Source of the DNA: Bryoerythrophyllum caledonicum
Lineage: Eukaryota > Streptophyta > Bryopsida > Pottiales > Pottiaceae
Direction: 5' to 3'
DNA length: 64,000 nucleotides
Assembly (NCBI GenBank): GCA_963971425.1
Contig: OZ020515.1
Coordinates: 4,394,678 to 4,458,677, forward strand
Shown here piece by piece: positions 22,710 to 54,519 of the stretch. The stretch's first letter is position 1; every line of letters starts with the position of its first letter. The notes under the pieces are model-generated. The model worked only from the letters and a program-made list of their open reading frames with translations, was not told the DNA's origin and did no database searches. The position numbers and the translations under genes are program-made.

Positions 22710-23255
22710 AGGAGGAGATCACGAAGAGCAGAATACGACGAAGGCGCGCAGAGCTGAATCACGAAGATCGCGAAGAGCTGAATCACGAAGAGGACAAGAT
22801 CACGAAAAGCAGAACACGAAAAGGGCGAGCAGCGCTGAACACGGAGATCACGAAGAGCAAAACACGAAGAAGGCGAGTAGAGCTGAATCACGAAGAGGAC
22901 GAGATCACGAAGAGGACGAGATCACGAAGAGCAGAACACGAAGAGGACGATTTGAGCAGAACACGAAGAGGGCGAGCAGAGCTGAGCACGAAGATTACGA
23001 AGAGCAGAGCAGAACATGAAGAGGATGAGCCGAGCAGAACACGAAGAGGGCGAGCAGAGCTGATTCACGAAGATCATGAAGAGCAGAACAAGAAGAAGAC
23101 GAGCTGAGCGAAGAGCTGAACACGAAGAGGACGAGTTGAGCAGAATCACAAAGAGCAGAACACGAAGAGGACGAAATGACGAAGAGCAGAATCACGAAGA
23201 TTACGAAGAGTAGAACACGGAGAGGACGAGCTGAGCAGAATACGAAGAGGACGAG
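22710..23255 (+). repeat. CACGAAG-type array in 5' LTR of gypsy-2
   Basis: Dense imperfect repeats of words such as CACGAAGAGCAGAACACGAA and GAGGACGAG fill this stretch. The same array is found in the 3' LTR at about 53230-53660. It identifies the fragment as the middle of a gypsy-2 LTR. The TGTGAGCC start and the first 700 or so bases of the LTR are absent. Confidence 0.8.
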
Positions 23256-34123: not shown

Positions 34124-34636
34124 TGTGAGCCGCAAAAACGGCCCACAATGTTGAATGGGCCACGCATCGCGTCCATAAAGGTTAAGTAGTAGTGGAGATA
34201 GGTTATCCCATGGGTTAGCTTGTGGTTTTTGATTAAAATAGCTAAATAGCCTTCCATGCGCTAATTCCTTAACTAGGAACCACTTATTTGGCAATCGCGG
34301 AGTTTATGTAGTTAGCCAAAAAAATAAATAGAAACGAAAAAAAATGAAGAAAAGGCAGAAAAGGCAAAAACAATAGAAAAGAATTAAAATTAGTAGTGGT
34401 GGAGAAGAATTTACCTCCTACCGAATCGGGGACCGCCATTGGCCTCGGTGAGGAAATCACGGGGAAAAATTAGGAGAAGAAGAAGAAGGATGGTGAGAAA
34501 AGAGGAAAAAGAAGAAGGAGGCCTTAAAAGCCATAAAAAATAACCAAAAATCCCCAAGGAGTGGGGAAGAAAAAAACCCTCACCATCACTTGGCAAATTA
34601 GCCATAACCCAAGACAAGGGGAATTCAATCTAGGCC
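34124..34636 (+). repeat. 3' LTR of gypsy-2, left part
   Basis: It begins TGTGAGCCGCAAAAACGG, as do the solo LTRs at 23256 and 41137, and is colinear with their first 500 bases. It is interrupted at AATCTAGGCC by the 18.2-kb TIR element and resumes at 52876 or 52886. Confidence 0.9.
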
Positions 34637-34690
34637 GAGGGAGGCTTGTTCATGAGCGGAGAGCGGAGAGCGGAGAGCGGTGAGCAGAGA
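34637..34690 (+). repeat. left terminal inverted repeat of copy B
   Basis: It reads GAGGGAGGCTTGTTCATG and then four GAGCGGA-type 7-bp units and GGTGAGCAGAG. The right end, read inward, is GGGAAAAGCTCGTATG, then GTGAGCG units and GGTGAGCAGAA. The match is clear but interrupted, and both arms are built on 7-bp GAGAGCG/GTGAGCG units. Confidence 0.75.
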
Positions 34691-34906
34691 TTTTAGCCAT
34701 AGAGAGCCGTGGATATACCAATATTCTTGGTATATTCGATAAAGATTCAAATATTCGAGAAATTATCTCAGAATAGTACATATATATTAAGGATTTTTTT
34801 GTTTCGACTATGTTTCTAACAATTTTGAAACCTCATACCGCAGTCCTAATTATGGTAATTGTGGCCTCTTTTAGAAAAGCTTGAAATACATACTGGATTA
34901 TACTAT

Positions 34907-35110
34907 GACCTTTTGGTACCGAGAGGTTTCATCGTGACCTCTTGGTACCGAGAGGTTTTATCGTGACCACTTGGTACCGAGGGATTTTGCCGTGACCTCT
35001 TCGTACCGAGAGGTTATACGGTGACCTCTTAGTACTAAAAGGATTTACGGTGACCTTTCGTACCAAGAGGATTCACCAAAACCTCTTGGCACCGAGAGGT
35101 TTTATTGTGA
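34907..35110 (+). repeat. 29-bp tandem repeat with near-palindromic core
   Basis: About seven imperfect 29-bp units of the form GACCTCTTGGTACCGAGAGG plus nine bases. The core CCTCTTGGTACCGAGAGG is nearly its own reverse complement around GGTACC. A matching motif (CCTCTCGGTACC) occurs once at about 45837, at the end of the intronic repeat of the companion gene. These subterminal repeats could bind the transposase; that is inference. Confidence 0.75.
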
Positions 35111-35262
35111 TGTCAATCAAAGAACATCTTCCAATTGAATGGATATCTTTAAATATGGGACTAGGGTTGATACCCGTCGTCCCGACGGGGAGAGCGGAGG
35201 ATGGTTTTATTTTTCTATTTTTGATACATGATACTTAAAACTCAATAAGCCAAATTTGAATA

Positions 35263-35488
35263 AAAGGGCACTATGAAGGATTCCTCCAAAGGGCACTATA
35301 AAGGATTCCTCCAAAGGGCACTATAAAAGATTCCTCCAAAGGGCACTATAAAGGATTCCTCCAAAGGGCACTATAAAAGATTCCTCCAAAGGGCACTATA
35401 AAGGATTCCTCCAAAGGGCACTATAAAGGATTCCTCCAAAGGGCACTATAAAGGATTCCTCCAAAGGGCACATATGGAGGATTCTTTC
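35263..35488 (+). repeat. 25-bp tandem repeat, nine copies
   Basis: Eight close copies of a 25-bp unit beginning AAAGGGCACTATAAAGGATT, starting at 35263, and a degenerate ninth to about 35488. There are no spacers, so it is a minisatellite. It lies in the 3' flank of the transposase gene. Confidence 0.9.
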
Positions 35489-35697
35489 AAAGTTCACATT
35501 CAATTCAAAGGACACACTTGATTCAAATGGCAAATCCAAAGGTCACGTGACCGGGAGCGGCGGAGAGACAGACTGTCGCCTATTATTATATGGGATGCCT
35601 CCGAGCAAATTAGTACAAAATTAAATTTGAACGCCTACTCGAGAACTAATAAAAAGGCTTCTCGTAGGTTACCTAGGAAATACACTAAGCAACCGGT

Positions 35698-38600
35698 CTA
35701 GGACCAAGAATGAGTTAGGATGCCGTATTCAAGAACTTGTTTGACCTCGTTCCAACTAAGGGTAGAAGCATGGATGAAGTCGACAGTTGGTTGAAATCCA
35801 TAGATCGTGAGAAAAATGTAGTAGAGATGTTTACAATGAGAGTACTGGCTCTTCCCACGGAATGCCTTCCAAGTCTTCGTGAAAGCTGGGCATGAACAAT
35901 GAGGGAATGCACTCACTGTTACGGAGTATATAGCAGCTTCGGCCGGAGCACCGAAAGAGAGGAGAGAAATGTGACACCCTTAACCGGGTCCTGGGAGCAT
36001 CCTCATGGCTTTGATGGAAGCATTGAGGTAGTCAACAGACCCCATCGACTTCCTCTGTTTCTCGTTACGCACTTTCGAGGTGCCTTCTCCGTCTTACCAT
36101 CCCTCTTTGCGGGAACTCTGGAGGCGTCCAATGGAACTGGGAAAGAACTCAAGTCTCTCGGAGGACGGTTGTTAGTAAATAGGCGTCTAGGAGAAACTTG
36201 TTGCTTCCGTGGGAGTTGAAATCCAGCCGCCTCAAGATCCTCAATCTCGCCACCGGTCAAATTAGTACCCACCATGACAGGCCAAACATCAGGGATTGGA
36301 AGCCTATCCTGGCCCTTTTTGTATTGAACCACCCATAGCCGCCTTGTATCCTTCACACATCGTTCAATGTCATCGTTGCAAAAGTGGAAATCCATTGTCT
36401 CTAAGACATTTTTCTTTGGATGACGATAAAAACCAGTGTATGTTGGTGCTGGAGTTGCCTTCCCACCCCTGACAATCTTCTCCTCACATTTCTTCTTTGA
36501 TATCAACCGTTGTGCCCAACAAGCCTTCGCATAATTCTTTGGCAAATGGGCAATATGCCACTCTGTCAACTCAACATGAGTTTCTTGCACCGCTGTGACA
36601 CGGCGCAAACCAGCTCTGCAAATTGGAGACGCCAATGGTGTCATAGGTCTTGGTCGTGTGGGAGACACATCATCATCAAAAATGCTACATCCTCCAACGA
36701 CATCCTCGTCATCAGCAACGCCGTTGCCTTCGTCGATAATGGGCAAGAGATTGGTAGAAGTTCCTAGAGGTCTCGAAAAATGGCGAGGTCGAGAGGAGTT
36801 TACTTTATTCGGGCGGTGTGACTCATCATCAGCACCGACTTGCATGTTTGGCTTACGCTTCCGTGAGCCAAATACCTCTTCACCGGCCTTGTATGTTGTG
36901 CGAGTACATAATTCCGCCGCCCCCGGCATTTGCAACATAGAGTTCTTTAGGATGCTAGGGTCACCCGTCCTTTGAGCCTTTCTCTCGGCCACTCTAAGCT
37001 TTAGTTCATCCTTGCTAGGACCCGTCCCACCAACGTCGCCTTTTAGAAATTGGTGATAGGTAACAACTTGGAGGAATCCACGTATGTAGTCGTCTACGGT
37101 GGCAACGTATAAGTTTGCCCCTCGGTTCCCGGAGGCTTGCTTCCACTTGTTGTGCACTGTCTCTGCTAGATTGCAAGAAGGCATCTCAGCTAGTTCATCG
37201 GCGGACATATTCTGCAAACAATCAACAATGAGTCAGAAACTAGTGATGAAGGAAGAGAAGGACTCATTGTGTAACGTACAAAAATGAAAAAGCATGTCAT
37301 ACCGTGGTCATGAATCCACTCCATTGACGGTATCTGAAGTGCCACCATACAAGCCAACTAGACATGGCCTCAAACCCTTTCTCAGATACAGCTCTAGATA
37401 TTGTGTACCACGCTTGAAGTGCATCGTATAGTCTATCAGCATCCTCCATGTTTCTTGCTTCCCTGTACTGCTCATAGAGTTTCTTGTGCTGCTCTTGAAA
37501 TTCTTCGGCAATCCACTTCTCCGTGTACTTAACCATACTTTGTACCCAGTGAAAAAGGCATGTTCGCTCCTTGTCCGTCATTACCTCGCCACCTCCGTAC
37601 ACAGCTCTTACTGCATTCCAGTTTGCCTGAGCACCATCCGCCATAAATCCCTTGAAATTAGGCATCTCCACACCATGTCGACGCATGACGTCATTTAGGT
37701 TATTCCAGAAAAGTATTTGAGCGGCTTTATCCTCGAACATCAAGTCGCAGCATGCGATGGTCATCACCCTCCGATACATGGCGTCGTAAACATGACATCC
37801 CATTGTTGTCCACTCTGCCACGCGTTTCACGTGGTCAAACATCATCCATGCATTATCCAGGTCATTGTCGGGTTGCATCCGCTTCACGAGGTCGACGCCA
37901 GAGCCCGGGCCAACCTCTGACATCTTAAAGACAAAGACCTTGGATTCTTCTCCCACAGCAGTCTCCGAACCTTGACTTGGGAACTTGCTATTCTGCACAA
38001 ACGCCTAAGAACTTACCGAGCGCAATTTTAGGATGGCATCCATGACACCATACCTCTTCAGATACTGGAATGTGACCACCTTGTTTCGGATGCTAGGAGA
38101 TCCCATGTCCTTGCATTTGTCTAACATGGGAGCTAGCTCCTCGACAGTCAAGATCTTCCAGGGGTCGCCATCTTCCCGAAGCAGGAAATCTCCAAGGAGC
38201 TCCTTGCTTGCTTCCAACACGATGGCACTCTTGGTCGCCTGTGGAGTCTGTTCTACTTGCTCACTAATAAGACTACTAATCTTCTCCTTAACATCGCGGT
38301 AATCACCTATTTTAACAGGATGTTTATGTACGCCTAAATGAATACAAGCACGGGTGTAGTTGCCCTTACCACTAACGTAGTACACCACAGCATCACATGT
38401 GGCAACACAAACCGGTGGATCTCCGCAGATCTTGCAAAGTAGCGTGTTCTTAGGGGCTTTTTGACTTGCCTCTAATGTCACCGACATCATTCCATTGAAC
38501 TCCCTCTCATTGACGTCCGAAATTCGATTAACTGGTTGGAGATATTCGCAGTCAACGTTGTCGCATTGCAGATGACCAACGCACTTGGAAGTCCGAAAGT

Positions 38601-39438
38601 GCAGGCCGTCGTCCTTCATAATGTTTGTTGTAATTGTCTTTGTCCAGACGTGTCCATCGTACCGCTTGTCCATCCCATGCATATTACGTGCCTGGGTGGA
38701 AGTAGCCGACGGTCGAACATGAGGCAATTCAAAGACCACTCCGTTGTTAAAATCGGCGGGGAGACAACTCACATGTTGGTGTGGAATGACATCAAAGTTC
38801 AGTTTCTTCAGAGGATTCTTGCCGCTAGCACGGGTGGACAACCGTTTGAGACTATCGATAACACTAACAATACCGGAAATACTTTGATCTCTTGGAGGAC
38901 TAGAATTGGGTGGACCGGAAGTAGTCAAAATGGACGAAACGGAATGACGATGACACGATATGAAATCAGCGCTCTTTGGGGGGCATGGACTAGGGATAGT
39001 GTCCTCATCATCTGAAGATAGAATGGTGACAGATTCGGTGTCAGGCTCAATCTTGACCTTCACGAGAGTTGGAGGAGGTATCTACATGCTACACGTTGTG
39101 GACTAATGAGGTATAAGATCAATAGATGATAGACTGGTATCTGAATCTACACGACCATATACCCGGTATCGACCACTGCAAAGTTTCCATTCCTTGTCAA
39201 AATCATTGTTCACAACGGCCTGAATAGGTGTAGTATACAATAGAGACAAACAATCATCGTTATAGACCTCTTCCTCGAAACAAATACTATCTTGTTGAAA
39301 ATTGAATCTAACACTCAATGCGGCACTAGTAACAGTGGCGATACCCTCCTTGTTCATAGGATAGGCAACAAGATCGCCATTGCCAGTAGTACGAAGTAAG
39401 GCTATCGAAGACAAGCTCGATGGAGTAGCGGAGGCCAT
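35698..39438 (-). CDS. MULE-like transposase with SWIM finger, nearly full length
   Basis: Proposed exons: 39438-39163, 39081-38017, 37992-37303 and 37211-35698, all phase 0, with GT-AG introns of 81, 24 and 91 nt. Exon 2 has an acidic N-terminal segment and a Cys-rich stretch. Exon 3 contains MTIACCD (near 37.75 kb), FMADGAQANW (near 37.64 kb) and CLFHW, the DDE-core and C-x2-H pattern of MULE transposases. Exon 4 has CNLAETVHNKW, CNDDIERCV and, at 35.84-35.90 kb, HCSCPAF...CKHLYYIF, a SWIM zinc finger. Lesions: a frameshift in a GGGG run near 36042, TAA at 35980-35982, and an in-frame TAG inside the 24-nt segment if it is not spliced. About 1180 codons. Expected to act in the nucleus, cutting and joining element ends. 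Confidence 0.8.
37993..38016 (-). other. 24-nt GT-AG segment in transposase gene (possible micro-intron)
   Basis: It begins GTAAGT and ends TTTGTGCAG. Its removal joins two conserved coding blocks in frame, while reading through hits TAG. A 24-nt intron would be far shorter than usual plant introns. Confidence 0.5.
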
Positions 39439-39920
39439 GGAAAAATCAAGACAAGAATGACAGACCGAACTGAAGAAAGTGGAGAAGTAAAGAGCAGGGC
39501 GGGGATTATATAAAACAATCGATGGATTTAAAAAGGAGTGTGACCAGAAGACGGCGTTTGTCAGTGCTTAAAGTAGACGTACTAAAAAATATTCAAGATT
39601 AGATGCAACAGTTGTAACTAACAACCAAGTAGACTTGGGGCAGCTGTACACTTCCAATATTTGAGAACAATCTATCTTTAGTCACTTTCACATTTGGCGA
39701 GTCTTGCTTTTTGTAGGATAAAGAGGTCGGCGCAAGTCCTAGTTTAGTAAAGATTACAACTATGTTGGAAACGGAACCCTTCAATATTATCCGAGATCAA
39801 ATAATGGACTTCAAAGAGTACAACAAATACCTATATTTCAAGCTAGGAAAAGGTTGGCGACCTTAATAAGGGCAGATGATATTTACCTCAACGTGCCAAG
39901 TCATAATGAAGGGAACATAG
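39439..39920. promoter_or_regulatory. divergent intergenic region between transposase and ParB/methyltransferase gene
   Basis: About 480 bases separate the start codons of the two divergent genes. It contains the TATA box for the minus-strand gene. A TATATT at about 39832 could serve the plus-strand gene. Shared use as a bidirectional promoter is inference from the layout. Confidence 0.4.
39506..39512 (-). promoter_or_regulatory. TATA box of transposase gene
   Basis: On the minus strand TTTTATATAATCC lies about 68 bases upstream of the proposed ATG at 39438, suitable spacing for a TATA box with a short 5' UTR. Confidence 0.6.
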
Positions 39921-41136
39921 GTGGAACATGGAGGGAACATGGAGGGTATAAACGAATTGCACGATGAGGAGAACTTGCATTCAGCTTTTATGGATATACA
40001 TGCAGAGGGAGGTGCGATCACCTGCGCACAACGGCGGCGGAAGGAGATGGAGAAGGCGAGTAGGGCGGTGGATGCGGGTGCCACGATCCGACGGCTAGGA
40101 GGGGAGTTTGCATAGTTACCAATTGTCACAACGGCAAGAAGAATAGCCCCAATTGCCGAAGCGGATGTTCAAGAAACAATGGCTATCACTCCCGCGGACT
40201 AGACAGGCGTTGCTGGAGTGGATGTCACCGTTGAGCCATCAGTGGTGATCAACCTAATCCGCGTGGAAGAGACTCAGGTATGCTTCCCAACTCATGTATA
40301 GCGGTCATACTCATGTAGAGCGGTCATCAACTAGAGGGATACTTTAGTGCACTGGATCATTGATCAATGAGAGCCAGAGTATTGGTACTTGTAATGAACT
40401 GTACTTAAATGATACAATTTTTAGTTGGCCAAGTTCAAAATTGAATATCGTGTACTAGGCAACAATTCACTCTAGTCCGGTACAATATAATCTTTTGAAT
40501 TAGAGTACCCCACACTATGGTCAATTTTGTTCGTAATAGAAATATTAGAAGCAAACTTTCTAACATCTAGAAAGTTTAAAGTTGGCAATACCCAAGCAAA
40601 ACTAGTTGGACATCCATTTAAGATCTAGGTGATACTAATAAAATAACCAGATAATATTTATTGTGTACACACCATAGACTTAGAAAATTCGGAATCAGGG
40701 TTTTAGGACATAAGGGGATGTGAGGGAGAGGGGAGGTCTCTAAGAAGGAAGCGAGTAGGGGAGAAGAGAGGTTTGTGAGGGGAGATTGGGAGGAGGGGAG
40801 GTCTGTGAGAGGGGAGATTAGTTTGAGTGGAGGTTTGTGAGAGGGAGTTGATCCAAGAGGTGGCTATGGTAGAGCAGGTGAGCGAGCCGCAGGACAAGGC
40901 CATGGCAGCAATGGCGGTAGACATCAATGACAAGCGTGAGGTTGGTGAAAGGGAGTCCAAGCAAGAGGTGGCCATGGCGGAGGGGGTTCATTCGGACGAA
41001 GAAGCGGTGAACATCGACGTCGAGAATGAGGTCGCCAATGAGGATATCAATGGACCTGAGCGTTTTGAAGGGAGAGGCGCCGTAGCCGACTGTGAGAAGG
41101 GTACCGCAGTAGCTGCTTTGGCCATGGCTACCTCCG

Positions 41137-43973
41137 TGTGAGCCGCAAAAACGGCCCACGATGACAAATGGACCACACATCATGTGCGTTAAGGTTAACA
41201 AGTAGTAGAAATGGGTTATCCCATTGGATTAGCTCGTGATTTTTGATCAAGATGGCTAAATAAGCCTTTCCATGCGCTAATTCCTCAAATAGGAGCCACC
41301 TTGTGGCAACTACGGATTTTATGAAGTTCACTAAAAAAATAAATAGAAAGGAAAAAATAAAGAAAAGGTTGGAAAACAAAAAAAACAATAGAAAGGGATT
41401 AGAATTAGAAGTAGTGGAGAAGAATTTACCTCCTACCGAATCCGGGACCGCCATTGGCGACGGTGAGGAAATCACGGAAAAAACTAGGAGAAGAAGAAGG
41501 AGGATGGTGAGGAGAAAAGAAAAAGAAAAAGAATGAGGCGTTAAAAGCCCTTAAAAAAAAATAGTCAAAGGGATCCAAAAAGAAGTGCAATAAAAAAAAA
41601 ACCCTCACCAATCACTAAGTAAATTAGGAATTCCCCCAAGCAAGGGAAATTCAAGCTAGGTAGAGTTAGATTTTTTTGCATCCTTGAATTTAGCTTGATA
41701 GCTCACTTATTGAGATTATGCACACACATGTGGCATGGAGTCAAAGTTTAGATTTAGATATTCCTTGGTTAGTGGGACACCCACTTTTGTTAAATGCAAG
41801 GGTGGCTAGTGATTTATTAGCTTTTTAGTTACTATTGTTTAGTGTGACCATTAATGTGCCCACCCAAAATTGGCGGCTGTCAATGACAAAGGGAACGACC
41901 TTGGGAACAAAGAAGGGAGCAAGGGCCTTGGGGTTACCCCCTTGGAGGCGCTCATTCGAAGTGTGTGTGGTAGGAGCTAGGAAACCGAGAGAGGTGTGTG
42001 GAAGAGAGAGAGAGGTAGGGTTCCAGATTTCCCCCTCTTGTGGGCTGGATTTTGATTCAAATGTTACGAAAATTAGATGGTAGATAGATTAGAGCGTTGG
42101 CTTTTCAACAAGGACGTACGGATCAGAGTTGTGACGACGAAGATACAAGCTACGGAGCGAGGACGACCAGCTGGAGGATCGGCGGCGGATCTCACTTGGC
42201 CTCCTCAGACTTTCCCCCGTCAGTCGCAGAGTTCTTGTCCGATGAAGCTGAAATTTTAGGAGTAGATAGATTAGAGCGTTGGCTTTCGAACAAGATCAAG
42301 AACGTACGGATCGGAGCTGTGACAACGAAGATACAAGCTGTGGAGCGAGGACGACCAGCTGGAGGATCGGCGGTGGATCTCACTTGGCCTCCTCAGATTT
42401 TCCCTTGTCAGTCGCAGAGTTCTTGTCCGATGAAGCTGAAATTTTAGGAGTAGATAGATTAGAGCGTTCGCTTTCGAAAAAAATCAAGAACGTACGGATC
42501 GGAGCTGTGACGACAAAGATACAAGCTGCGGAGCGAGGACGACGAGCTGGAGGATCGGCGGCGGATCTCACTTGGCCTCCTCAGATTTTCCCTCGTCAGT
42601 CGCAGAGTTCTTGTCCGATGAAGCTGAGATTTTTGGAATAGATAGATTAGAGCATTGGCTTTTCAATAAGATCAAGAACGTACGGATCGGAGCTGCGACA
42701 ACGAAGGTACAAGCTGCGGAGCGAGGACGACCAGCTGGAGGATCGGCGGCGGATCTCACTTGGCCTCCTCAGATTTTCCCTCGTCAGTCGCAGAGTTATT
42801 GTCCGATGAAGCTGAGATTTTTGGAATAGATAGATTAGAGCATTGGCTTTTCAATAAGATCAAGAACGTACGGATCGGAGCTGCGACAACGAAGGTACAA
42901 GCTGCGGAGCGAGGACGACCAGCTGGAGGATCGGCGGCGGATCTCACTTGTCCTTAGATTTCCCCTTGTCAGTCGCAGAGTTCTAGTCTGATCAAGCTAA
43001 GATTTTAGAAATAGATAGATTAGAGCGTTGGCTTTTCAACAAGATCAAGAACGTGCAAATTGGAGTCGTGACGACGAAGATACGGGCTGCGGAGTGAAGA
43101 GCACCAAGAAGAGGAGGACGACCACAGCACAAGAACGAACACGAATACGGCAGAGGGTGAATTGAGCTGTATCAGGGAGCCTTCTTCCTCTCCCAATTGA
43201 TTCATTATCCTCTTGATTGCATGTGGAGAAGGAACCCTAAATTTTCTAGTTACAAAAATCACGCAGAAGCGTTGCCAAATTTTCACTAGGATTAGGGTTT
43301 GCTATCAACTCAACCAAACAATCGGTTTAATCTACAATAGTAAGTGAAGGCAGCTAGAGGCTCATGCATGGTATAGTGTTTGAGTAGGGCCACTTGTGTG
43401 AATGCATGTGGTATACACGTGAATTGTGGTGCACGATTTTGAATAAACATGTATGTTAAGTGTGCACTGCTGGTCGTTGGCTGTGAGTCCCGTATTGAGT
43501 CAACCGGTTAATTGAAGGCTGCCATCGTGTTAAGCAAGAAAACTCATTAGAATACGAAAAACAAACGAAATAAACGGAGTCATAATCACGAAGATAATGA
43601 AGAATTAAACTTTTAACATAAAAAGAGGAGCCTGTCTGCTGGTTGCTGCTGTCAGGGTCGCACTTGGGCCTGGAATTGGTGGTTAAGGTGCTAATCAAGT
43701 TTACAGGGCGAAATTGAACCTAACGGAGCTTTAAAACATTGGAAATGGAGCTTTGAGGCGGAATTTACGCTTGTCTAAAGGTTGGATTCAACCTAAGGCT
43801 GAATTCAGCCATCACATCACTAATTATTAACGAACCCTCTTTAGTGACCACGCCTTGGGTCATCATGCTTGTATGAATGGTTAAAGTATGTTTGTACAAG
43901 TGGCTGCATCCCATATGTAGGGTCTTGTGTTCAAGATAAGCCACCCATTAGGGGGTGGTTTATTTGGCTCACA
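41137..43973 (+). mobile_element. solo LTR (2837 bp) inside an exon, 5-bp TSD
   Basis: It begins TGTGAGCCGCAAAAACGG and ends TTTGGCTCACA. CTCCG is repeated at 41132-41136 and 43974-43978. Removing the LTR and one CTCCG restores one reading frame (MATS joined to GLQQDEV), so the host was a continuous exon. It is the same family as 23256-25520 and is longer because of a larger 188-bp array. Confidence 0.95.
42085..43070 (+). repeat. 188-bp tandem array in solo LTR, about six units
   Basis: Units start at AGAGCGTTGGCTTT-like words at 42091, 42273, 42461, 42649, 42837 and 43022, a spacing of 182-188 bp. The solo LTR at 23256 has about three units, and the length difference of the two LTRs (572 bp) is close to three units. 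Confidence 0.85.
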
Positions 43974-45165
43974 CTCCGGTTTGCAACAAGATGAAGTCGG
44001 TCCAGTAGAGACAAAGAAGAGGAAGGGACGCTTTAGGGTTCCAAAAAGTGAAGAGGAAGAGGATGAGGAGAATTTGGGTACGGAGGATGAAATAGATGTT
44101 GTGGAGATTGAGAAGCGGATGGGGTTGCTCTACAACCCTGATTCCTTTGCTGCCATCACTCTCATGCGCCAAGAGCTAGAGGAGAAGTTTTCAAGACTGC
44201 GAGTGCCCCTATGCCGCATGGTGCCGATGCCAGAACTTTGAGGTATTCAATTGGCGGACAAGTTTAAGTTGCAGGATAGTTTTGAGCACGGATATCGATT
44301 AGGCACCTCTGTATTCTATATTGCATTAACGGGAAAGGATGGAGAGAAGATGACGGTGGCAAGAGAGATAGAGGATCAGTGGTTGCCTAATTGGAAGGCC
44401 GTGAACAACGAGTTCGAAACGCAGCTGAAGGATGACCCTGATCTTGGTGAATTGAGCGGCAAAATGTTCTTCATCTACGATGGCAACCACCGTCATAATG
44501 CTTGGAAGTCGTTCATTGATAAGAGAAAGAGTGGCGATTTATTGTTTACACGCAGCAATGGCCAGCCCGAGACTATCATGCTCAATATCACGCCAAGCGG
44601 CTTTCCAAAGATTCTGAAAGCAACGGACGCCGTGAATAAGTATGTTGTAAGTGTGTGATTTTGAATTCTCTTTTCCTAAATTATGATCAACATGCTTGTA
44701 CTTCAATACAGGGCTACGGAAAAAGCACATGTGAAGACAAACATGATGCATGAGTTAGATAGAGTGAGTATATTTGGTCAGCGCGACATATCGTACTACA
44801 AGGATTTGATACCGGAGAAGGTCTACAGCAAGTGTCTCAGGGTCAAAAGAGATACCTGGTACCCGATTCCTTCAAATCAAATGGTGAAGATTCTATTTCA
44901 TATAAGTAAACTCTTACATTGACATTTAGAGGCTGCCACATTTTTGTTTTCATTCGAAAGCTAATATGAAGCATTACAGGATGAATTACAAGAGATAGCT
45001 TTGACTGAACGCAACGAGTTCAAAATGGATGGTAAAACAACCGGTGTAGAGCTGAGGTCAAAGGTGGAAGAGGCAATGGCTGTGAAGAAGTTGAAATTGA
45101 CGAAACGGCTCAGCAAGCTTTCTGCAGTAGCGGATCCACGATTGGGGAAGGATTTTCTAGATCAA

Positions 45166-46012
45166 GTACACTCGATTAACTCATATTGTCATTGAGTCAT
45201 TGTTACATTGTATTATATTTAGGACTTTGACATTAAACAAACCCTTCCTGCGTTAAAATTTCTCATCTAGTTTTTTTCATGTGGGGACAAAAGAGTGTTA
45301 TCTCGGAATGGGGTGAAAAGGTTCTCGGACTTTGACATTAAACAAACCCTTCTAGCGTTATAATTTCTCACCTAGTTTTTTTCATGTGGGGACGAAAGAG
45401 TGATATCTCGGAACGGGGTGAAAAGGTTCTCGGACCGAGGACATTAAACAAACCCTTCTAGCGCTACAATTTCTCACCTAGTTTTTTTCATGTGGGGACG
45501 AAAGAGTGATATCTCGGAAGGGGGTGAAAAGGTTCTCGGACCGAGGACATTAAACAAACCCTTCTAGCGTTACAATTTCTCACCTAGTTTTTTTCATGTG
45601 GGGACGAAAGAGTGTTATCTCGGAAGGGGGTGAAAAGGTTCTCGGACCAAGAACAAAAAACTAGCCCTTCCGGCATTCCAAACTCACGTAGTATTATTTC
45701 ATGTGTGGACCAAGGTGTGACATCTCGGAAGGGGGTAAATACGTTCTCGGTCCAAGAACAAAAAATCAACCCTTCAGACGATATGTTAATTTGACAAGTA
45801 TTAAGATCAAGTGGTCATTCGGGGGTCACTATAGAACCTCTCGGTACCAAAAGGTTACGGTGTACTAAAAAAAGGAGACTTTTTTGGTGGCCCTCCTTGG
45901 GTCTCATGGGTTGGATTCATATGTTCAAATATGAGTATTGTGGTATTTGTATTGTTAACGTTGTTTTATTGTAATTTGATATTCCATGGTTTTATTGTGT
46001 GGCTTTTGCTAG
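45166..46012 (+). other. 847-bp intron of ParB/methyltransferase gene holding 106-bp repeats
   Basis: The intron runs from a GTACAC donor to a TTTGCTAG acceptor and is ten times longer than the other introns. About 45231-45650 contains four 105-106 bp units beginning CATTAAACAAACCC, and degenerate units continue to about 45780. A GGTACC palindromic motif like those near the left end lies at about 45837. Confidence 0.8.
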
Positions 46013-48595
46013 GTTCGACTACACTATTCAACCCACCGAATCGAAAAAGTTGATATGGGATTGGATAAACTTCAGATGATTGCCACTACGAATGTGCCGA
46101 ACCAGTACAAGACTGAATGGCTAAAGCTATGGAATAGTTTGTGCTTTAACCGGAAGGAAAAACACTAGCCACAACCTTGCTCCGAGACGCAACTACGGAC
46201 GTACCTAGATCGGGCAGTATTCTGGATTCAGGTTAGCAATCAATTCCAAATCAAACTCGAGTAATTCATATCATTATCATGAAGAAGTAACAATGTTTGT
46301 GTGCAGCTGAAAGACAAGATCGCAATGACTATTGATGAGATAGTGGGGGAGCTCGATATCGTTCCTAATGTGGAGTATGAGTCTTGGGAGATATTCTTTG
46401 AGACATGGAGATGTCAGATTTGGTCTCATGCTTTTCTAGCTGTGCTTGGTGGCAAGACAAAGTTTACCCGGCTGACAAAGTGGGAGGATGTGCGAGGAAG
46501 ACAAGATATGGCAGAGCAATTTATTTATCGCTACATTTGTCAGGTCTTGTTCAACGTGAAGGCAATCCTTAGAGTTCCATAGTGGATGAATTCTGCATAT
46601 CCTCCCTCCTCTGATACATGTATGTATACGGCATATCAAAAGGAAGTGTTCTCACTTCAGCATCTGAGAGAGTGTTTGTGGTATGTTGAGTGTAACAAGA
46701 ACTACTGCTATGAGACGGAGCTGGAGTACAAGAACATCCTTGGACCACTATCAGGACCAGATGTGGAAGTCAAAGTAATCACTAAGGAAGCTGAATCCAA
46801 GAAGAAGCCACAACCACTGAGTCCGAAGTCCAAGCAACAAGCGAGGAATAAGAGAGCGAAGCAGAAGCGAGATGCAATCAAGAAATCCAAGCTAAGGGCC
46901 AAGGAAGCCAAAAGAAGAGAAGAGCTAGGGCTGTCACCGTTGCCCTCTGAGGATGACGAAGATGATGAAGACGAGTTGGCAAGCAAGGAGACCCATACTA
47001 TTGTTCCAGAAGAGGGCCAATTCACACAGAATCTTGAAGAGCGAGAGATTCAAGCTGATAAAGACGTGATGCATATGGCTGACTCAGAAGAGGGTGAAGA
47101 AGGACAAGATGGGGACAAGCATAACAATTCGATGTCTCAACGTTCTGTACCTGTCCGACACGTTCAAACCCGTCGCCAGGCACGGTCTCCAGGTGTTGGG
47201 ATATCGAATGCACATTCAACTCTATCCGGAACCTCTCTTCGTGACCCAATGCCTAGCCGGACCATGGCACCGCCACCTGGGAATGCTTGTCTCATATCTA
47301 ACTTGATCATCTATGCTCCTATCTCCCGTGACCTTTGGCAGACCATAGCTGATTATGCTGCGGAGTATAACGATGGAAAGAAGTGCATTTGGGGAGGGAA
47401 GTATGTTGATAAAGAGGCGAAAATGGACCTCATTATTGCGGAGATCCCAGACAACAAACCTGTGAAGGGTGTATGCTACGAAACTCCAGTGTGGAACGTC
47501 CTTGACCCCACTTGGTTGAAGAATGTGTTTGCCTTTGCCAACAAATTTCTACATGACGATGGGGCGATGTTCTTTATCTGCAGCGACGACGGCGGGAGCA
47601 CGAAAGAGTTTTTCACAAGTTATTTTCCACAGTTTGGATTCAAAATTTTTAACGAATATCATGGTGTGAATTGCATGTACACTTATTCGGCCATTGACAA
47701 TTCCTTGACGGGACTTTTCAAGATTGCCTTGATCGTTCGCGACATAGCCGGATCCTTACGCAGAAAATCAGGCTTCCATTTTCGAGTTCATCATGCTCTT
47801 AATGACCACGACCTTATCATTAGCGATGGTGACACAATTTGGAATTTTGTCACCCCTGAGTGGCAGAAGACAACGGACGGGAAGGTGTGGCAAGGACCAA
47901 AGGAGCGCGGTAGTCACTTTATGACATCGTTGATCCTGTCATCCACTGACATTGATAACCTTGTTGTGGAGATGACTGCAAATGTCGGTATGTTTTGCAC
48001 TTACACGCAAGTTGTGTATGTTCTGTATTACGTTTCTAACAACAGTTGTTATCAAGTAATTCGGTGACGGTGTGCAAGGAATACGGAAGAAATATTGTGG
48101 CATTAGAGGCGGACAATGATGTGTAAGTATCAATACTATCCCCATTGAAGATCACGCGCCCTACTACATCTGTCGATGCCGACTCTTCCTCCGAACCGGA
48201 TGAACCTCACGCCGGACCACCTCCACAGGTTGCACTTGATGCTGAAGATCTAGAGGACATCATACCAAGGGATAAGGGAAAGCGCAAGCGCATTGCAATC
48301 AAGTAAGTAGGATGGTTGTACATTTCAGCATTCTGCTTATAAATGTTTTTCCAGATTACTTCTCAAATATTTTGTCATTGTCCGCAGCAGGTCACTAGAT
48401 TGCAGTGTATCAGAATATCCATTTTTGCCAGAGTATGCACAACAATTGGCAAATTTGTTCGCATCGTCGATAACACCTCCGCCAAAGAGACTTAGTAAGC
48501 GCCAACACTACAATCCAGCTATTTTAGGTTTACTTGATCTTCAAGCAGTACACAATAGAAAGGAGCCTTCTTTAGACTCGACAGATGATTTTTAG

Positions 48596-50182
48596 TTGGC
48601 AGGTAACTCTATAACTTTGTTGTGAAAAGTTGTAGGTTTCGTGTAAAAAGTGATACTTTTTCGTGAAAAAAAATGTAGTAAATGAAACTTTTTGTGTGAA
48701 AAAAAGTTCAAAATTTGGCGTAGGTCTTTTCAGACTCATTATTTTCAGGTTTTTTTTGCATGGGTGTTTTCACCTTGTTTTTTTATTTTTGCCTTTTTAT
48801 TTTATTTTTATTTATTTTTAATTTTGGTTATGTATATATTTTTGTAATTTTTTGAATGAAGTGAAAGGATCTCCATTATTCGGTGTTGGTTTTGAACCAA
48901 CTGAAATTACAAAGAAATATGCAACAAACGACGCACTAGGAATCTGAGGCCTTCACCCCTCGTCCGAAGACTGATTTACCACTGTGCCCAGCGTTGGCAC
49001 CATCAGCGCATTCAGATTCCTAGTTTGCAGATTGTGCAAAAAATCATTGAAAAATGCTCACCAACCACTGTGAGACCAAGTGTTTTATTTTTCCTTTATT
49101 AAAATTATTAACCACCCAAATGAAATATATTTAATATTTAATCATAAAAACACATTTCATTCAAATTTATTAATCTAATCTAGTATCATACATAGTTCAC
49201 GTCCAAAATGTTATTCCTCCAATCTGCACGACAAACAAGCAAAAAATATCAAATGATGCAATAATTCTAATTGGAATATAACAATAATTGAATGAACAGA
49301 AATGACGGAGACTAAAAAACCTAAGTAAGCACACTAAAATCTAGCATAATGACATTACTTACGAAGAATATGTAAGTTCCGTTGATCGCCATTTGTTCAT
49401 GCAAGCCAATACATCCACAAGCCATATTAGTAAATCATCTTTCACCATCATAATATATTCGTAAACTTACTAAGCTATTTGTGATAATTCATGAGAAAAA
49501 AATAAACGAACATAGATTACCAGCAGTGGTTAGACTGAGTGCACAACAATAAGTCATGAAAAAAGATGTGGAAAAGAATGAACGAACATAGGTTAGCTGC
49601 AGTGCGAAGACGGAGTGGACAGTAGTGAGGGAGAGCAGGTTTGTGCCCAATAACGATGGCAGATTTGTGAAGGAGTAGGGGATACCCTGAATTTGAGATC
49701 TTGGTTCCATGAGTTTGATGAAAAGTTCAGGTCCACCTTTAGATCCACAGGTTTTAGTATCCCAAAGGTTCGGGGGTTCCACGTTTCAGGACAAGGTTCC
49801 ACGGTTCCACGTTTTAGTTCAAGGTTCTAGGGTTCCACATCTCATTCCAAGGTTCCACGGTTCCACATCTCATTCCAAGGTTCCACGATTCCACATCTCA
49901 TTCCAAGGTTCAAGGATTCCAAACTGAGTTGCATTGTTCCACATTGTTCCAAGTCCAATTTCAGTATTCCACATTTGTTTTCAAAATGAGTTCAAGTTCC
50001 TCATTTGATTCCTGCAACTTCTTTGCTACCAATGGCAACATGGGGTAATCACCATCTACTCAACCTGCACACAGGATCCAACTTTACTCATTAAACTCTG
50101 TTCATTCTCATGACAATGCACGAAATCTCCAAAGAGGGCTGCTACGGGTTCCAAGTAAGTACCAGCGAGTCGTACGTCCCCT
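48596..50182. other. right arm of copy B, noncoding, with 28-bp repeats
   Basis: AT-rich, with no gene recognised. At 49763-49922 there are about five imperfect 28-bp units of the type GGTTCCACGGTTCCACATCT. The 3' UTR of the preceding gene is presumably in the first few hundred bases. Confidence 0.55.
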
Positions 50183-50800
50183 AGATGGTGGCTTCAAAAC
50201 CGTTAAAGGATGTAGGCACTATAGCGCCAGCATCTGCCAACGCGTTGTTCTTGGTCTGAGCAGACTTTTCATCGCCACCACTCTTCGCGCCCTGTACTTA
50301 ACTGCAACATCCTCAGCACATCAGAAAGCATTACCAGTAACGGAATTCACATACCCGAAGAAGGGGACTGAACTTATCGCATAGACTTTGGACTTGAACA
50401 AGCGGGCACAGATGCCACGGACCCAAGCCACTGGCTTGCTGACCTTCCCCTGTTTCAAGGCGTCTACCAGAGAGTACTCGTCTCTCCCTCCCAGCTCTCC
50501 TAGAACAACCATCATTTTGATCTACATGTAGAGAAACTTGAATCAGTCCACACCGAAAAGACTAATAATATTTACAAAAAAACGGCTGCAGAAATCATCG
50601 GACCAGCTTGACTACAACTATCATCAAACCAGCTTGACCAGAAATCATCGAACCAACTTGACCACAACCTCCGAGCCCTGCAATTAATACCTGTGAATTG
50701 TTGTTGAAGCGCAACACATGATCTGTAAGCGTGGAACCAGGGTAGACATCTCCACCAATAGCAATGCCTTCATAGAGTCCGTCCGTAACTACGGTGCCAC
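50183..50800 (-). pseudogene. ACLB: captured fragment of ATP-citrate lyase subunit B
   Basis: Three exon pieces in the correct order on the minus strand: 50796-50691 ([20 protein letters not shown], then [10 protein letters not shown]), 50521 to about 50387 (IKMMVVLGELGGRDEYSLVD, then GICARLFKS) and about 50301-50187 (GAKSGGDEKSAQ, then DAGAIVPTSF). These match the CoA-binding/ligase half of plant ACLB, the cytosolic enzyme that makes acetyl-CoA from citrate. Introns are kept (for example donor GTATTA at 50690 and acceptor TGTAG at 50522), so genomic DNA and not cDNA was captured. Only about a fifth of the protein is present, with damaged joins. Typical of Pack-MULE gene capture. Confidence 0.85.
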
Positions 50801-50865
50801 GCTCGCACCAGCCTCACACGAGAATGACGACCACAACCACTTCGCTCTCAGCGATTCCGAGCTCT

Positions 50866-51052
50866 TGAACACGTCAAAGAAACACCATGCACAAAGTGAA
50901 CACCAGGAAGTGGTACGTGTGCTGCTCCTCCTCCACGAACGAGGACGACGCTAGGCTCGCGGCGTGTATGCACGCCTCCGACCGCTACCAAGAGCAATAC
51001 AGGTGTAGAGCAGCATCAGGGCTCCGCCGCAAACGAAGAGGGGAGTGATTTT
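50866..51052 (-). pseudogene. captured fragment of PIG-G-like GPI ethanolamine-phosphate transferase
   Basis: On the minus strand, after a TTGCAG acceptor at 51053, an exon-like stretch reads KITPLFVCGGALMLLYTCIA and then, after a one-base shift, AASLASSSFVEEEQHTYHFL and VFTLCMVFL. The SSSFVEEE-H-T-F-L pattern in a membrane segment is what I recognise from PIG-G/GPI7, an ER membrane protein adding ethanolamine phosphate to GPI anchors. It lies beside the ACLB fragment in the same orientation, though the two genes are unrelated. Assignment rests on one motif. Confidence 0.55.
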
Positions 51053-51099
51053 CTGCAAGGAAGAAGCAGGGAGGTTAGACCGGAAGAAACTCAGAAAGA

Positions 51100-51470
51100 G
51101 CGATGGATGAGAGAGGCAGCGCAAAGGATGATACTACACAACAATGAACACCAGGATGTATATGCCTCGATCAGCTCGCCCTTCCACCATCGACTTGCGC
51201 GCGGGCTCCCGAGGCGGCCGCAAGCGTGCACGGTGCCTTCTCCTCCAAACCCCATCTCTCTAAGTCTTTTTGTAGGAGACTTTCGGCCCTCGTCACTTCC
51301 GCCAAGCCCTTTGACACACACAAATTCTACTTTGCCATCACCGCCGCGCCACGCCCCACGTTCCCAAGCGCTCCTCGCTTCTGCGCCTCTCCAGCAGCCC
51401 ATGTGACTCTACGCAAGTCCCGCTCCCATTCCAGAGCTGCGCGCCCAGCTTCTTCGCCACTTGCTTCAAC
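51100..51470. other. GC-rich island in copy B, possible further captured fragment
   Basis: The GC content rises sharply here between AT-rich flanks, and frames are open on both strands for about 100 codons. I recognise no protein. By context it may be a third captured gene piece, such as a 5' UTR plus N-terminus. Confidence 0.35.
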
Positions 51471-51474
51471 GACT

Positions 51475-51850
51475 CTTCTTCTTCTATTCTACTTTTTCTA
51501 ATTCTTCTTTTTCTTTTTCTTCGTTTTCGTTTTCTTCTTCTTTTTCTTTTTCTTTTTTTTCTTCTTTTTCTTCTTCTTATTCTTCTTCTTCTTCTTCTTC
51601 TTTTCCTTTTTTTTTTTTTTTTTTTTTTTTTCTTCTTCTTCTTCTTCTTCTTCTTCTTCGTCTTCTTCTTCTTCTTCGTCTTCTTCTTCTTCTTCGTCTT
51701 CTTCTTCTTCTTCGTCTTCTTCTTCTTCTTCGTCTTCTTCTTCTTCTTCGTCTTCTTCTTTTTTTTCTTTTTTTTCTTCTTCTTCTAATTCTAATTTTTA
51801 TTTATTTTATTTTTTTATTCTTCCTCTTCTAATTCTAATTTTCTTCTTCT
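51475..51850 (+). repeat. TTC/TTCTTCG polypyrimidine microsatellite
   Basis: A long pyrimidine-only strand: TTC repeats, a T run at about 51610-51630, and an 18-bp higher-order unit of TTC repeats ending TTCG repeated five times (51643-51755). The poly-Leu/Ser frames it encodes are not genes. Confidence 0.9.
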
Positions 51851-52817
51851 TCTTTTTCTAATTTAAAATTCACATTTTCAAATTATAAATTGTGAATCTT
51901 AAATACGAAATTCCAAATTTTAAATTCTAAATCCTAAACATTTTTTCCATTTTTTCTTCTCACTAATCTATATTTTCTCTCCTACTATTTGGCCTCACAC
52001 CACATAATACCATTACTCTATTGCACTATTGAAAACAAGTGTGAAGATGTGGAGGTTCAAAAATTGACAATTCACTCGATATTTATTGTGAACTCAATAT
52101 GTATAAAATTGATAATCCACATGGTCAATAAGAAGGTTTCCACCACATGATGTTGTAAAAAGAATAAAAAAATAAATTATATGAAGATCTCTAGGTTTTA
52201 CGTAGAAAAGAAGAACTTTTTCTGGTAACTTGCCCGACAATATGTGAAAATGGTTGACTTGGATTAAAAAAAAAGATTATACTAAATTCAAGAATCTTTT
52301 ATTGACATCTTCAAAGAAGGTAATATTCTCTATACGTATGAAAAATCTCAATGTCAATAGAAACTTCTAGCAAAAAATTTGGAGTTGCCCAAAGTCACCA
52401 TTATTACTTTGAAGGCTAATAAATTTCATTTTACGAAACCAAATTTTTTTTAAATATTTCCAAAAATATCTCATTAGGGACAATCTAGATATAAAAAATT
52501 CAAAAAAAGAAGATTCTTTACCGAATTTTAGAAACTTGCCCAAAATCAAAATTGTCTCTCCAAGGGACACTTGGTCATTTAGAAATTATCACTTCTACTT
52601 AATGTAATGATACCATGAAGTAGTGTTATTTGCTTTGATATTCTGGAAATATTAATTCTTGTCTTCAGGGAAAACATCATATCAAAAACCATCTATCTAA
52701 ACCAAAAATAGAGAATGTCGGTCTTAGTTTTAAGTTTTACTAAAAAAAGACCACCGTAATAGGACCCCTTAAATGCATTATGTGCACATGAAATGTAAAA
52801 TTTTCTGCTCTCTTTTT
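51851..52817. other. AT-rich right end of copy B, nothing recognised
   Basis: No coding sequence or repeat stands out up to the terminal inverted repeat. Confidence 0.5.
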
Positions 52818-52875
52818 CTGCTCACCGCTCTCCGCTCACCGCTCACCGCTCACCGCTCACATACGAGCTTTTCCC
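52818..52875 (-). repeat. right terminal inverted repeat of copy B
   Basis: It reads CTGCTCACCGCTCTCCGCTC, further CACCGCT units, then CACATACGAGCTTTTCCC, directly before the second AATCTAGGCC. Its complement aligns with 34637-34690. Confidence 0.75.
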
Positions 52876-52885
52876 AATCTAGGCC

Positions 52886-54519
52886 AATTGATTAGTTTTC
52901 GCATCTTTGAAATTAGATTAAAAGCTCACTTATTGGAGGTCATGCACACCCATGTGGCATGGGGTCAAAGTTTAGATTTAGATATTCCTTAGTTAGTAAG
53001 ACACCCACTTTTGTTAAATGCAAGGGTGGCACGGGATTAGTAGTCATAGGGTTAATAGGCTTTGTAAGAAGGGGTCATTAATGGAAGAAGGCCAAAGGCG
53101 GCGGGGAACACCCATGGGAACGCAGAAGAGCAAGGCTAGGGGGTGACCCTGGTAGAGGGGGATTATTTAGGAGGGAAGTTGGGTGAGAAGCAAAGGATTT
53201 CTGAGGGAAGGAGAGCCGGAAGCCCCGGCCACTAGGAGTGTGAATGAGAATAGGCAGAACACGAAGAAGACGAGATCACGAAGAGCAGAACACGAAGAGG
53301 GCGAGCAGCGCTGAACACAAAGATCGCGAAGAGCTAAACACGAAGAGGACGACATCACGAAGAGCAGGACACGAAGAGGGCGAGCAGAGCTGAATCACGA
53401 AGATCACGAAGAGCAGAACAGGAAGAGGACGAGCTGAGCGAAGAGCTGAACACGAAGAGGATGAGCTGAGCGAAGAGCTGAACATGAAGAGGACGAGTTG
53501 AGCAGAATCACGAAGAGCAGAACACGAAGAGGACGAGATCACGAAGAGCAGAATCACGAAGATTACGAAGAGCAGAACATGGAGAGGACGAGCTGAGCAG
53601 AACACGAAGAGGACGAGCTGAGCAGAACACGAAGAGGACGAGCTGAGCAGAACACGAAGAGGACGAGATCAGCTGAAGCACGAAGAACTGAAGGAAGGAG
53701 GGTGAATTGAATAAAACCAGGGAGCCTCTCCTTCCCCCCGGCTAGTGGTCAATTCCTTGTGCATAAGGGAACCCTAATTTTCTAGTCACACACGTCACGC
53801 GGAAGCGCTGTCAAAATTTCACTAGAATTAGGGTAGCAATCAACTCAACTCAACCAAGTGATCAATCTACAAGAATAAGAGAACGCGACGGGATGCTCAT
53901 GCGTAGCTTAGTGTTAAGGTGGGGTTAATCATGTGAAGTATATGTGACGTGCACGTGAATGGTTGGTTACAATTTTTGAGTAAACATGTATGTTGAAGGT
54001 GCACTGCTGGTCGCTGGCTGTGAGGTCCAGGGTCGAGTCAAATGATTAATTGAAGGCTGCCATCATGTTAAGCACAAAAAACTAGTACGAATGAAAAAAA
54101 CAACCATACGAAACGGAGTTATAATCAAGGAGATAAATGGTAATATAAGTCTGTAGAAAATATGGGGCCCTGTCTGCTGCCGACTGATTCCAGGGTCACA
54201 CCTAAGCCTGGAGCTGACCTTTAAGGGTCTAATCAAGTTTGTGATGCTGAATCGAACCCATGGGGGTTGAAAACGTTGGATTCGGAGCTCTAGAGCAAAA
54301 GTTACCTCCGTTCAAGGGTGGGTTCAGTTAAAAGGCTGGATTAAGTCACCACCTCACTAATCAACCACAAGGAACCTAAGTAAGCATGAGATGTGTCACC
54401 ATGCTCGTATAAGTTGTGTGTGAATGGGCTGAGGATTGGTTGCACAAGGAACTAGGCCCCGTATTAGGATCTTGTGTTCAAGATAAGCCACCTTTTAGGG
54501 ACGGTTTATTTGGCTCACA
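52886..54519 (+). repeat. 3' LTR of gypsy-2, right part
   Basis: It continues the LTR broken at 34636. The order is a segment shared with the solo LTRs (TGTGGCATGGGGTCAAAG near 52955), the CACGAAG array at about 53230-53660, and a 3' portion almost identical to 25521-26377 ending TTTGGCTCACA. Frames here are shadows of the array. Confidence 0.92.

Follow-up and report, generated by a model that had tools for sequence, protein, structure and literature searches.

We analysed a 64,000-nucleotide (nt) stretch of Bryoerythrophyllum caledonicum DNA (OZ020515.1, positions 4,394,678-4,458,677; hereafter 'the window'), in which an original prediction had placed an 18-kb Mutator-like element (MULE) encoding a transposase and, divergent from it, a second large gene with ParB-like and methyltransferase-like parts, which we call the companion. 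Genome-wide searches were made in the 437-Mb assembly, in which a 5S rRNA copy appears to be of the green-plant lineage. We find that the two genes recur together in several element families, and that four of the seven families examined carry their own repeated palindrome resembling parS, in three of them within an intron of the companion gene. The window holds a copy of what we call family A, and two further copies of this family, at C3:32885837-32900691 and C2:30.27 Mb (the C3 and C2 copies), served for comparison. The borders and later insertions are as follows, with long terminal repeat abbreviated LTR and target-site duplication TSD; here and below, a strand is given where one applies.

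34627-34636: left TSD AATCTAGGCC, perfect over 10 bp
34637-52875: putative Mutator-like element, a family A copy with later nested insertions
34637-34690: left terminal inverted region of 7-bp GAGCGGA units
35161-35586: repeat that the C3 and C2 copies lack, with a 25-bp array at 35263-35492; most of its sequence matches many genome places
41137-43973: later insertion, a TG...CA solo LTR with the 5-bp TSD CTCCG, which splits the ParB-like exon of the companion and is absent from the C3 and C2 copies
52817-52875: right terminal inverted region of 7-bp GCTCACC units
52876-52885: right TSD AATCTAGGCC, perfect over 10 bp

The direct repeat that had been noticed at both borders, within an otherwise continuous LTR, is thus a perfect 10-bp TSD. 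When joined, the flanks match two further LTR copies of the window through the junction, at 80.5% over 694 columns and 78.7% over 689 columns. The inverted ends, proposed to be built on short GAGCG-type units, are identical at 34 of 36 bp within their first 60 bp and are indeed made of GAGCGG units; terminal inverted repeats are a feature of MULEs. Searching the genome with the left 524 bp returned seven places including the window, the six others at 82-98% identity, and the right end gave three near-full matches besides the window (95-96%); both end regions lie at element distance in three other loci. The left tip GAGGGAGGCTTGTTCATGAGCGG forms the outer border in all five left ends read, the window counted (the 524-bp matches of the others have 98, 98, 94 and 85% identity), with the fifth differing by one base. 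At the right tip, two other copies match to full length and a third match ends 36 bases short. The proposed borders therefore coincide with the ends of other copies. A perfect 10-bp TSD, within the 8-11 bp typical of MULEs, is present in two of the three copies checked, namely the window copy and the 14,855-bp C3 copy, which has its own (GTTGCCACCA); none was found when one was looked for at the C2 copy. The TSD, the shared ends and the way in which the joined flanks restore an LTR show that 34637-52875 is a single DNA transposon insertion.

The predicted size of 18 kb did not survive comparison with the C3 copy, relative to which the extra sequences are 35161-35586 and 41137-43973. Because the latter is a later solo LTR and the former is absent from both comparison copies, the element proper measures about 15 kb. 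The nested solo LTR (about 2.8 kb) is related to the LTR that holds the element, to which it has 80.5% identity over its first 678 bases and 70.7% over its last 758, and both match a third LTR copy at about 23255-23918. Within the nested solo LTR lies a 188-bp tandem array of 5.4 copies (42081-43094), and the array inside the 35161-35586 repeat is a 25-bp minisatellite, AAAGGGCACTATAAAGGATTCCTCC. Beyond the element, its right flank contains a degenerate minisatellite on ACGAAGAG units (53254-53686). The window copy is dead, with several stops in each of the two genes, and the unbroken form of both must therefore come from other copies.

Transposase and companion genes

35827-39438, - strand: transposase gene with several stops; exons about 39438-37297 and 37211-35827
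35827-35898, - strand: SWIM-type zinc finger CSC...CKH of the transposase, assigned by pattern and lying beyond a frame break
40827-41136, + strand: companion, first part of the ParB-like exon (N-terminal region); the exon is continuous in L041 and in the C3 copy
43974-44639, + strand: companion, rest of the ParB-like exon, with DGNHR..AW at 44479-44505 and an in-frame stop at 44239-44241
44712-45165, + strand: companion exons 2 and 3, about 44712-44901 and 44980-45165, by comparison with a spliced family B gene
45166-46012, + strand: companion intron 3, holding one palindrome array and one further palindrome
46013-46231, + strand: companion exon 4, with a stop in the window copy
46307-47987, + strand: companion main exon with the methyltransferase-like domain; the DPPY position reads EIPD (47441-47452), and motif I starts at the 3' end
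48060-48597, + strand: companion 3' exons, with borders approximated from the spliced family B gene

The companion is a gene with introns encoding about 1,200 residues, and both parts that had been proposed for it were recovered. Its ParB-like part has the ParB-CTPase (ParB/Srx) fold, in which DGNHR..AW is invariant in all nine aligned companion sequences and contains the G-x-x-R that we take to be the ParB signature. Canonical ParB proteins additionally have a parS-reading helix-turn-helix domain and a ParA partner. The methyltransferase-like part has a beta-class fold with the motif order IV-X-I, and its nearest match is CcrM (E-value 2.2e-5 by profile and 9.1e-7 by Foldseek), with predicted local distance difference test scores of 69.5 for the structure model and 57.5 for a second one. 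The Pfam family N6_N4_Mtase matches at an E-value of 1.9e-4 (21.9 bits against a cut-off of 26.7). The S-adenosylmethionine (SAM)-binding motif I is kept, reading DATAGVGTS in family B. However, the catalytic motif DPP[YFW], which positions the target amino group in amino-methyltransferases, is absent in every companion sequence looked at (families A-H and loci L048-L052). At this motif-IV position, families A-H instead read [DE][IV]P[DE], except that one copy, present at two loci (L027 and L041), has R in place of P. Even this is not an invariant motif, as L048-L052 read QVPD (three), QVSD (one) or QISN (one). METTL14 is a pseudo-enzyme that likewise lacks DPP[YFW], and the methyltransferase fold of the companion is probably inactive.

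We expect that the companion was probably derived from a prokaryotic ParB-methyltransferase protein of phage or plasmid type. A canonical relative of this kind was sought in sequence collections with the spliced companion, and also in viral contigs, and none was found in either; the main exon retrieved one short metagenome protein. Searches of PDB sequences with the ParB piece and with a ParB profile each returned one weak unrelated match. In several families, a short basic open reading frame (ORF) precedes the ParB exon (L061, 2255-2626, - strand; L062, 275-808, + strand; L044, 2285-2704, + strand). These ORFs share similar KQLKR-like and VL[SN][FY]-like stretches and are perhaps the first companion exon or a third gene.

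For the transposase, the expected SWIM finger is present as a CxC...CxH pattern in the window, family B and family D proteins, though in the window it lies past the frame break, and Pfam SWIM gives an E-value of 1.2 in family B. SWIM fingers are common in MULEs and not universal. The window gene also contains DAMY (DxTY in relatives) and ADG..C..H within 37297-38004, and its second exon reads NLAETVHNKW. Three motifs, DxTY, D..C..H and NLAE[TS].HN.W, were spotted by eye in the transposases and are presumably those of MULE transposases. An intact layout is offered by the family B transposase on C15 (L053), where an open 740-residue exon is followed by a 510-residue exon ending in a SWIM-type finger, and by the family D transposase on C11, which is arranged in the same way. 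Pfam Transposase_mut matched one window exon weakly (E-value 0.044), a Pfam search of the A3 transposase set (12 members) found no transposase family, a PDB search with the transposase profile gave no match, and a protein search returned 136 related proteins with uninformative names, the best 69% identical. The likely assignment to Mutator-like elements thus draws on the TSD, the inverted ends, the SWIM pattern and the transposase motifs, not on a significant Pfam match.

Recurrence of the pair and its palindromes

The genome contains 91 matches to the main companion exon, 1,558 candidates for the ParB-like exon (the best 150 of which extend down to 36% identity) and at least 150 matches to the transposase. 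For 54 of the best 150 transposase matches, a companion is listed no more than 15 kb away, and all but one of these pairs are divergent (53 of 54); the pairing count was made without eight of the 91 main-exon rows and one of the 150 ParB-like exon rows, all second pieces. When these transposases are binned by percent identity to the window transposase, the paired share is 2/2 (95-100), 11/12 (87-95), 2/21 (83-87), 17/24 (78-83), 0/9 (70-78), 20/41 (64-70) and 2/41 (60-64). It might appear that some transposases have no companion, given the 96 of 150 left unpaired among the listed matches, but the ParB-like exon entered this count with the best 150 of 1,558 candidates, and the two such loci read (C3:30248507 and C8:8417421), taken from bins with a low paired share, both carry one about 7 kb away, with nothing in the first 4 kb read. 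With two of 96 unpaired loci read, some subfamilies may have lost it. A companion missing throughout would have spoken against the original prediction, and this is not what the genome contains: six families (A, B, C, D, G and H) have the two genes at one locus, and for E and F the reading covered just the companion. We therefore consider the element to represent a large, old, apparently Mutator-like lineage in which an autonomous copy has a DDE/SWIM transposase gene and the companion gene arranged head to head.

The ratio of nonsynonymous to synonymous substitution rates (dN/dS) between family A subclades is 0.21-0.28 for the main companion exon and 0.11-0.15 for the transposase exon. Between families A and B, it is 0.10-0.15 (with dS saturated) and 0.08-0.11, respectively. 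The companion is under purifying selection between subfamilies. The two families share about 55% identity in the companion and about 82% in the transposase, such that the companion appears constrained yet faster changing, although a similar picture would result if families had exchanged gene halves. Beside a family D element, two ORFs (L054, 2464-3834) resemble, by eye, pieces of a hAT-type transposase.

The search for palindromes covered families A, B, D, E, F, G and H, with the C-type loci L046-L052, which are short exon pieces, left out. Repeated family-specific parS-like palindromes, a new observation that the original prediction did not include, are present in four of these seven families (A, B, D and G). 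In the window copy they comprise:

34906-35104: subterminal 29-bp tandem array centred on the 18-bp palindrome CCTCTTGGTACCGAGAGG, six copies with at most three mismatches, adjoining the left end
45229-45775: 105/106-bp array holding the palindrome GTTCTCGGTCCGAGAAC, in companion intron 3
45837-45854: one CCTCTCGGTACCAAAAGG, in companion intron 3

The palindrome CCTCTTGGTACCGAGAGG has seven matches in the window against 0.10 expected, all inside the element, and is also found in the family copies L002-L005. Family B carries GGTCTCGTNACGAGACC and variants at about 107-bp spacing in companion intron 3, with one copy behind the gene. In family D, TTGT[TC]GGATCC[AG]ACAA and variants occupy the same intron, mostly at about 117-bp spacing, and dispersed copies lie elsewhere, whereas family G has TTTCGGTACCGAAA at 84-bp spacing upstream of the ParB exon. 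When the largest palindrome family was compared with the maximum of 60 shuffles, the counts were 6 versus 3 for A (the C3 copy), 5 versus 3 for B, 12 versus 3 for D and 5 versus 2 for G.

Family D provides the most detailed picture. Majority identity is 0.90 in its palindrome and 0.57 in the flanks, and changes are paired on both arms. Its pattern occurs 244 + 236 times genome-wide, compared with 3 + 0 for the reversed pattern. The listing gives 61 distinct sites, and the five D-type ParB loci in the stretch it covers have 26 of them at a distance of 8 kb or less, against 0.03 expected by chance; the listed sites are near all five D-type loci and near none of ten A-type and none of ten B-type loci. 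Clusters of the D palindrome also occur with no listed ParB or transposase match nearby, 11 at C3:2340795-2362300 and 4 at C3:5195713-5200976. The core TCGG..CCGA was chosen after the palindromes had been seen, and its counts are descriptive: 6, 7, 5 and 1 in the A copies of the window, C3, C2 and C12, 0 in B, 4 in D, 0 in E, 0 in F, 2 in G, 3 in H and 0 in the 45.8 kb of the window outside the element.

Possible functions of the companion

The reading that we favour, to which we assign a probability of roughly 45%, is that the companion is an element-specific factor that binds the palindromes of its own family in an anti-silencing or self-regulating role, with a non-catalytic methyltransferase domain. 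Because the protein has a ParB-type fold and the families have their own parS-like palindromes, three of them in the companion's own intron, the evidence suggests that the companion reads these sites. Its ParB-like part, perhaps as a nucleotide-gated clamp, and/or its methyltransferase-like part would assemble on them, and the latter might read DNA without modifying it. Three families would have the assembly in companion intron 3, and family A would have it next to the left end as well. The assembled protein could shield the promoters and ends of the element from host silencing or adjust its own expression, much as VANC proteins do for the Arabidopsis VANDAL elements, and each family would evolve its palindrome and companion together. 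The anti-silencing role and the part played by the changed catalytic motif are what we infer from this arrangement. Of the earlier suggestions that the companion may methylate or bind element DNA, the first has been weakened by the absence of DPPY in every sequence looked at, and the second has gained indirect support from the family-specific palindromes.

Several observations weigh against this proposal. ParB proteins read parS through a separate helix-turn-helix domain, for which no search was made in the companion, and the reader of the palindromes could instead be the transposase or a host factor. The spliced open family B companion has one junction without a GT donor, and recent copy pairs have higher dN/dS (0.25-0.54 for the companion and 0.17-0.51 for the transposase), as is expected if recent copies decay. 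The family G array lies inside a 203-codon open frame and may be a coding repeat. Copies within an array are not independent of each other, as in family D, where two unit types alternate, and 35 of the 61 listed D sites, including the C3 clusters of 11 and 4, have no listed D-type locus within 8 kb. Palindrome counts do not exceed the shuffles in family H (3 versus 3), and no array was seen in the 9-kb pieces that represent families E and F (1 versus 2). The window copy reaches 4 versus 3, with the 188-bp array of the nested LTR giving another four-copy palindrome, and three control stretches of the window gave 1 versus 3, 3 versus 2 and 3 versus 2. Given two controls above the shuffle maximum and the palindrome of the nested LTR, the weak cases mean little, and only families A, B, D and G stand out.

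A bolder version, which we consider rather unlikely, holds that a complete ParB/parS-like system operates in this eukaryotic transposon. In that case, a phage-derived clamp joined to a dead methyltransferase, which would read DNA and not modify it, would load on the family palindromes, spread along the element, and exclude silencing or hold copies together, with palindrome and protein diverging in concert.

It is unlikely that the companion is instead a transposition helper, working with the transposase on DNA in end synapsis, target choice or the holding together of copies, with the palindromes as assembly sites and no role in silencing. ParB proteins do bridge and condense DNA, the family A array adjoins the left end, and the two genes keep their head-to-head order. 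However, most sites in families B and D are intronic and several kb from the ends.

Somewhat less probable is an active amino-methyltransferase for DNA (or RNA), whose catalytic motif would be unusual and which would mark element DNA with N6-methyladenine or N4-methylcytosine to protect or activate it. The best profile and fold match, CcrM, is an active DNA adenine methyltransferase, motif I is kept, and families A-H retain a common pattern at the motif-IV position. Against this stand the loss of DPP[YFW], as in pseudo-enzymes, and the L048-L052 sequences, in which not even the acidic residue is kept.

We give slightly less credence again to palindromes that are unrelated to the companion and that instead serve the transposase or a host protein as binding sites or are self-propagating minisatellites. 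Mutator transposases bind terminal or subterminal repeats, tandem arrays may spread through unequal exchange, and the family G array in its open frame would suit this explanation. Yet the arrays occupy the same intron in families A, B and D, and family D keeps its palindrome while the rest of the unit decays and has dispersed single copies in the same element. Finally, a captured passenger gene without function for the element is very improbable: MULEs often capture pieces of host genes and many companion copies contain stops, but dN/dS is below 0.3 between subfamilies, six families retain both genes, and the head-to-head order is nearly universal among the listed pairs.

Comparison with known systems

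According to the original prediction, such a companion gene is not known from any described MULE, and the papers listed by our literature search included neither a ParB/methyltransferase companion in a MULE or another transposon nor MULE sites resembling parS. Other MULEs carry extra ORFs (SET, OTU, PMD and DUF) along with TSDs of 8-11 bp and SWIM fingers (PMC6446971). The present element resembles them in all three respects, but none of the extra-ORF rows examined in that report has a ParB-like or DNA-methyltransferase-like companion. Fusions of a ParB-CTPase fold to an N6_N4 methyltransferase have been described in phages and are enriched in prophage regions (PMC12704722), and these combine the same two folds in one protein. 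In contrast to these prokaryotic fusions, the companion is long, has introns and carries a changed catalytic motif. Such fusions are a likely source of the companion; the main text of that report contains no match for 'transpos'. Among the fungi, DNA transposons are described that carry TET/JBP dioxygenase genes, thought to counter methylation silencing (PMC12730594). They are a second precedent besides VANC in that a DNA-modification-type gene is on board, but it encodes an oxidase and belongs to other transposon groups, whereas here a ParB-methyltransferase-like and probably non-catalytic protein resides in a seemingly Mutator-like element.

Escape from silencing is known in detail for very few transposons, and the arrangement described here appears to be a novel means by which a eukaryotic transposon protects or controls itself, one that places a ParB-type fold beside parS-like sites. 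Because the companion protein and its candidate sites are short and defined, binding is directly testable. If our proposal is true, a second MULE lineage has paired a companion with fast-changing motifs, using unrelated prokaryotic folds, and sequence-specific self-protection has evolved more than once. The working precedent is that of the Arabidopsis VANDAL elements and VANC, in which a DNA transposon of the Mutator kind likewise has an extra protein and repeated motifs in the element. The VANC target regions are reported to consist of short motifs that are repeated in tandem in its noncoding parts and diverge rapidly (PMC10398659). Unlike VANC, the companion has ParB-type and methyltransferase-type folds, its motifs are palindromic, and its anti-silencing role is so far a proposal. 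Were the bolder version above correct, the lineage would be a counterpart of VANDAL/VANC that arose independently and would put the ParB/parS principle to use in a eukaryote.

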